A stretch of 64,000 nt of DNA, taken from NCBI GenBank assembly GCA_021234155.1, contig JAJEKV010000027.1, positions 4,834,623 to 4,898,622 on the forward strand. Direction: 5' to 3'. This stretch comes from Isoetes taiwanensis. Its lineage: Eukaryota > Streptophyta > Lycopodiopsida > Isoetales > Isoetaceae. The stretch's first letter is position 1; each line of letters begins with the position of its first letter. Under the pieces are notes generated by a model. It did no database searches. It worked only from the letters and a program-made list of their open reading frames with translations, and was not told the DNA's origin. Made by a program: the position numbers and the translations under genes. Positions 63,193 to 63,570 of the stretch are shown here, in pieces.

Positions 63193-63570
63193 TCATATCA
63201 TACTCCGTGCCAAGTGCAGGTCCTTGGGCATAACCGTCACCCGCTTGGCGTGGATGGCGCAAAGGTTTCCCTCCTCAAAGAGCTGGATCAGCTCTGCTTC
63301 TGAGGCTTCTTGCAGGGCCCGGGTCATTAGAGGTGTGACCCTGTAATCGGTCCGGAACTCCTGCATTACCTCGCGAAGAAGGTGTTCGAATGGCGCCTTC
63401 CTTATTAGGAGATTAGTGCACTGTTGAAAGTGCCTAATCTCGCTAAACACCCGAACGTGCCGGGAGTTTGGCCCGTGATGGGTCTTCTTGGGCTTCTCGA
63501 CATTCTACTTGCAGTACCAATCATTATACCTCGTCCAGCGACGGAGGTACTCCTGGTACACCTTCATTCT
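63193..63570 (-). pseudogene. histone H3-like (CENH3-like) domain at the N-terminus of ORF0
   Basis: In the frame of ORF0, the sequence from 63450 to 63193 aligns without gaps to histone H3 residues about 48-131. Helix alpha-N: SEIRHFQQCTNLLIRK. Alpha-1: FEHLLREVMQEF. Loop 1: RTDYRV. Alpha-2: TRALQEASEAELIQLF and EEGNLCAIHAKR. Loop 2 and alpha-3: VTVMPKDLHLAR. Residues equivalent to H3 R83 (loop 1 DNA contact) and C110, H113, R116, D123, L126 (H3-H3' four-helix bundle) are kept. EIRHFQ, TNLLI and APF resemble centromeric H3 more than canonical H3 (RRYQ, TELLI, LPF), but loop 1 lacks the usual CENH3 extension. Upstream, KPKKTHHGPNSRHVRV mimics the end of the H3 tail; a TAG lies at 63507-63505. 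After alpha-3 a stop or frameshift leads to the rest of ORF0. Confidence 0.85.

Follow-up and report, generated by a model that had tools for sequence, protein, structure and literature searches.

Whether a long terminal repeat (LTR) retrotransposon can carry a histone of its own, as a part of the element rather than as a piece of a host gene taken up once, is the question raised by a stretch of 64,000 nucleotides of the Isoetes taiwanensis genome (assembly GCA_021234155.1, contig JAJEKV010000027.1, positions 4,834,623 to 4,898,622), in the following called the window. Close to position 64000, and on the minus strand, a histone fold of the H3 type is encoded within a Ty3/gypsy element, at the start of ORF0, an accessory open reading frame (ORF) located 5′ of gag. 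Some DNA viruses are known to encode histones, whereas no LTR retrotransposon is known to us to do so. Surprising as it is, the fusion of H3 and ORF0 in this single, decayed chromovirus copy is real and well supported by the sequence.

An initial annotation had placed the fold in an ORF at 63193-63570, of which the part that is actually open is 63196-63504, coding for 103 residues without a stop; a stop codon at 63505-63507 breaks the rest of the proposed frame. The presence of the fold inside the minus-strand ORF of the gypsy element was borne out by a comparison with the Pfam Histone profile (PF00125; 89.9 bits, E=1.9e-25, against a curated cut-off of 26.4 bits), and solved H3 chains match the domain at approximately 102 bits across 83 ungapped residues; the H3 domain is real and well past chance expectation. 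Identity to canonical H3 is 50 of 82 residues, in agreement with the three-fifths estimated at first by hand, with no gap, stop or loop insertion or deletion, and the highest identity to any of 121 fetched proteins is 53/82. The ungapped span extends from H3 residue ~47 to R128; thus, the gap-free match claimed for the whole fold holds over this span, while the first half of alpha-N is missing. The C-terminal RIRGERA is not retained either, and in the translation upstream of the domain the H3 N-terminal tail (ARTKQTARKS) was not found, its place being taken by unrelated charged sequence. The equivalents of C110, H113, R116, D123, L126 and R83, which had been listed as retained, are all present by numbering. 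When residues are grouped by contact lists, 10 of the 12 residues of the H3-H3′ bundle are kept, along with 17 of 25 in the core and at the interface with H4 (roughly half of the 8 replacements there being conservative) and 9 of 16 that contact DNA, so that, by these lists, the H3-H3′ four-helix-bundle surface would be the best-kept surface of the domain.

As the motifs EIRHFQ, TNLLI and APF had been likened to CENH3, a domain derived from a centromeric histone, and targeting the element to centromeres, had to be considered. EIRHFQ and TNLLI do occur also in the Arabidopsis CENH3, and the element is a chromovirus. However, the loop-1 insertion of CENP-A is absent, loop 1 of the domain being of canonical H3 length, and human CENP-A (sequence confirmed in the PDB) is identical at 40 of 83 positions (48%) with a 2-residue gap in loop 1, as opposed to 55 of 88 (63%), ungapped, for the ordinary H3 P0030. 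Furthermore, H53, F54, N59 and A65 are found in 7, 21, 10 and 14, respectively, of 100 other H3 windows. In a tree the domain sits on a long branch (0.75) apart from the CENP-A/CENH3 pair, without grouping with it, although the tree is built on 84 columns from 60 of the 95 distinct P-series rows plus 3, has long branches, and leaves 41 of its 60 inner branches open. The lack of the loop-1 insertion and the occurrence of the ‘CENH3-like’ residues in ordinary H3s identify the domain as of H3 type rather than CENH3 type; the proposed link to CENH3 is not supported, and a CENH3 origin is most unlikely.

The way in which the domain diverged bears on whether it has been a protein or a dead copy. The 32 changes from canonical H3 in the 82 compared positions (~39%) fall at sites that vary among other H3s: mean site variability is 0.142 where the residue has changed, against 0.040 where it has not, and a value as high as that observed was reached in none of 20,000 permutations and in none of 3,000 neutral simulations (random starting codons, no indels modelled). 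Variability was computed on 108 distinct windows, those with fewer than 45/82 canonical matches being dropped; since the comparison set was drawn from the query's closest hits, the element's own residues were excluded. It follows that the segment was an H3-like protein during most of the time in which it diverged, and the statement that it is not a recent host H3 copy holds. Other measures say less. The 82 codons are free of stops, as in 372 of the 3,000 neutral simulations, which makes this weak evidence on its own; in a first simulation 13% of the outcomes lacked stops and 0.6% had a mean substitution score as high as observed, and the number of positive-scoring changes (11 versus 8.3) was not unusual (P 0.18). 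A processed retro-pseudogene of H3, inserted by chance where ORF0 starts, would fit a decayed element, and a one-off insertion would appear at this locus only. Against it stand, besides the clustering of changes at H3-variable sites, the missing marks of such an insertion, two of which (a flanking duplication and poly(A)) would, according to the initial annotation, have refuted its own reading: there is no flanking repeat, in that 63150-63215 and 63300-64000 share no word of at least 8 bp, and no poly(A) is seen by eye, as is the case for the H3 tail and the H3 C-terminus. Such an origin is therefore very improbable.

How the domain is joined to its surroundings was followed through codon log-odds, trained on the element's gag, pol and three ORF0 blocks below 63039, with the two remaining frames of these pieces as background. 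Between 64000 and ~63616 frame 2 scores best, though only weakly so at the upstream end; between 63604 and 63220 it is frame 0, which contains the H3 domain; at the H3-to-ORF0 junction they are mixed, with frame 1 on top at 63244-63148 and frame 2 from 63172 down. The N-terminal extension, which continues past the window edge, correspondingly runs in frame 2 to ~63616 and then for ~40 codons in the H3 frame up to the stop. A coding signal thus spans the N-terminal flank, H3 and ORF0, and the codon use of the flank is like that of the element. On the other side of the domain the evidence comes from P0121, a protein of 501 residues and the only ORF0 relative found in 5.8 billion proteins (7,994 candidates scored). 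Its residues 47-501 align to 63084-61702, and residues 10-42 to 63197-63099 in frame 2 with 30% identity (E 0.099 by itself and 2.9e-7 in a sum with the match next to it). As the alignment reaches 63197, ORF0 homology starts right at the end of H3, with no intervening sequence. The best-predicted part of P0121, residues 51-120 (corresponding to 62713-63039 on the minus strand), is a helix/hairpin region, with ten-residue block means of 53-79 in predicted local distance difference test (pLDDT) score.

The window copy is decayed: its reading frame shifts near 63.2 kb and again near 63.1 kb, a stop stands ahead of H3, and three in-frame stops lie at 63039-61699 in the ORF0 body. H3 does share strand and frame with the downstream ORF0 blocks, as initially described, except that the linking stretch (~63197-63090) is in a different frame, the element being decayed there. 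That the H3 segment is open while its flanks contain stops could suggest a domesticated gene, namely an H3-ORF0 fusion serving the host and left beside a decaying element, but with a stop immediately upstream and frame changes immediately downstream there is no intact gene at the locus, and this possibility is scarcely plausible.

More weight attaches to a capture event. LTR elements are known to transduce pieces of genes, and the element, or a small subfamily of it, could have acquired part of a divergent H3 variant of the host, a piece with no role in the element. Several observations speak for this and against a fusion proper to the element. The strongest, and the main counterpoint to H3 being present throughout the lineage, is P0121 itself, which contains no Pfam domain and no H3 and begins where the window H3 ends (the contig bearing it measures 2,007 bases). 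Furthermore, no H3 was detected upstream of a second, older copy of ORF0 in the window; the first ~90 ORF0 residues of this copy were undetected too, and because its N-terminus escapes detection as well the copy is no test of H3 presence. The H3-family constraint could have acted inside the element or, before capture, in a host H3 variant. Finally, the G+C content at third codon positions is somewhat higher in the N-terminus and H3 (0.68-0.74) than in the ORF0 body (0.58-0.60) and gag-pol (0.46-0.52). On the opposite side, no relative more than 66% identical to the domain is present among the matches listed (120 of 5,019 and 120 of 6,454), the coding signal extends into an N-terminus that is not H3 and whose codon use resembles that of the element, and the end of H3 abuts the start of ORF0. 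Capture without function is thus a serious alternative, if not a probable one, and our judgement inclines, though only just, to the H3-ORF0 fusion as a feature of the element.

The second ORF0 copy is informative on ORF0 itself. Between the two copies nucleotide identity by codon position is 0.52/0.66/0.34, and the ratio of nonsynonymous to synonymous differences (pN/pS) is 0.51 (0.44-0.58) for 375 codon pairs, the 7 that contain stops having been dropped from a total of 382, with pS near saturation and with tblastn-derived pairs favouring protein similarity. The comparison shows ORF0 as a sequence apparently conserved for its protein product. The two halves of the second copy look like those of a single older element, followed by gag-like DNA at 14828-15353. 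They are parted by a nested insertion of ~10 kb (3357-13442), which seems to be flanked by a 5-bp target duplication, TCCAC, and across which the protein is continuous; a blastn comparison of 3362-6500 with 10001-13440 did not find an LTR pair for this insertion, inside which a long degenerate pyrimidine-rich repeat array lies at 10577-12464.

If the H3-ORF0 fusion belongs to the element, the following picture may be drawn. A plant Ty3/gypsy chromovirus with an accessory ORF0 5′ of gag would have acquired, at the N-terminus of the ORF0 body, a domain derived from an H3 of canonical type, which would have lost the RIRGERA C-terminus as well as the tail before diverging under H3-family constraint. 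The module could fold with host H4 and/or join H3-H4 dimers or tetramers through its alpha-2/alpha-3 surface. In live copies, ORF0 might act as a bridge from the particle, or from the complex of complementary DNA (cDNA) and integrase, to host histones or nucleosomes, beside the integrase chromodomain. As the DNA contacts are less well kept, a tether would fit better than a builder of nucleosomes; tethering as such is possible rather than likely. Equally tentative is the wider proposal of a plant chromovirus lineage that encodes its own histone, in which the ORF0-fused H3 would pair with host H4 and seat the particle, cDNA or integration complex in chromatin. Of the interpretation originally given, an H3 fold in a chromovirus ORF0, non-recent and, by its flanks, not a retro-pseudogene, is retained, and the link to CENH3 is abandoned.

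The assignment of the element to the chromoviruses in the initial annotation is right: gag is followed by protease, reverse transcriptase, RNase H and integrase in this order, and a chromodomain lies after the integrase (table 1). The integrase catalytic core gave no match in the domain search, in which the zinc-binding and C-terminal integrase domains were matched; RT_RNaseH_2 at the end of the protease-reverse transcriptase piece scores 24.5 bits, below its own cut-off. The 5′ LTR would fall past window position 64000. An AT-rich spacer of ~180-230 bp separates ORF0 from gag in both copies (at ~14263-14445 on the plus strand in the second), terminating in each in TGCAG immediately ahead of gag-side sequence; it is intron-like, and may be spliced.

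Table 1. Parts of the chromovirus and of the second ORF0 copy in the window.
Feature	Position	Strand	Evidence
ORF0 N-terminal extension, charged/Q/S/E/K-rich, low-complexity	63505..63998	-	codon log-odds, weak at upstream end
H3-type histone fold (~residue 47 to R128)	63196..63504	-	Pfam, solved H3 chains, alignment
ORF0 body, ~500 residues, colinear with P0121 (~35% identical)	61699..63197	-	protein homology
AT-rich spacer, ORF0 stop to gag	61470..61700	-	sequence; 3′ splice-site-like TTGCAG at its end
gag, two open pieces	60328..61158	-	second piece: Ty3_capsid PF19259 34 bits, Retrotrans_gag 28.2 bits
Protease and reverse transcriptase	58524..60029	-	RVP_2 20.5 bits, RVT_1 99.5 bits
RNase H	58094..58534	-	PF17917 101.8 bits
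Integrase zinc-binding domain	57566..58018	-	PF17921 74.1 bits
Integrase C-terminus: SH3_Tf2-1 and chromodomain	56667..57371	-	76.6 bits; PF00385 41.6 bits
Polypurine tract / putative 3′ LTR start	55734..55752	-	by eye
First half of the second, older ORF0 copy (P0121 94-222)	2966..3361	+	protein matches; no H3 detected upstream
Second ORF0 copy, second half (P0121 221-501)	13444..14260	+	protein matches

Elsewhere in the window, direct repeats at 33710-34192 and 43475-43965, 88% identical, may be the LTRs of another minus-strand gypsy-type element, with gag at 42485-43078, ~400 bp from the repeat. A cytochrome P450 fragment is found at 24522-25046 on the plus strand (173.9 bits), and positions 1-700 contain, by eye, what we take to be exons of a gene of the host, similar to the EEF1A lysine methyltransferase 1 family.

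A retroelement that combined an H3 module with a chromodomain would offer a direct handle on how chromatin targets are chosen or shielded, and a natural experiment on which histone surfaces stay (H3-H3′) and which relax (DNA contacts). No LTR retrotransposon encoding a histone is named in the titles and abstract openings listed by literature searches (in one of them 20 of 117), a weak test of absence in print. With the plant chromoviruses (group II chromodomain) the window element shares the order of gag, protease, reverse transcriptase, RNase H, integrase and C-terminal chromodomain, and differs from them by the extra H3-fold ORF0 upstream of gag; its chromodomain, when set against PMC3350952, seems to be without the first aromatic residue while keeping W. 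CENH3 and CENP-A are likewise divergent H3s with EIRHFQ/TNLLI-like residues, from which the window domain differs in having no loop-1 insertion and in being fused to ORF0. Elements of the Ogre/Tat type, likened here by description, also possess an extra ORF upstream of gag and an intron-like spacer; they are non-chromoviruses, and to our knowledge none carries a histone fold. The planarian Gypsy element Burro, with its accessory domains, has likewise captured host-type domains (PMC6431247, a review in which the word ‘histone’ does not occur). A further parallel is found in the viral histones of giant viruses, a nudivirus and bracoviruses (H4), where a histone fold is also found in a viral or mobile genome, the hosts of the fold being DNA viruses; in the main text of the review PMC9145170, neither ‘retrotransposon’ nor ‘retrovirus’ occurs. 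A histone encoded by a chromovirus, if true, would be their counterpart among retroelements.
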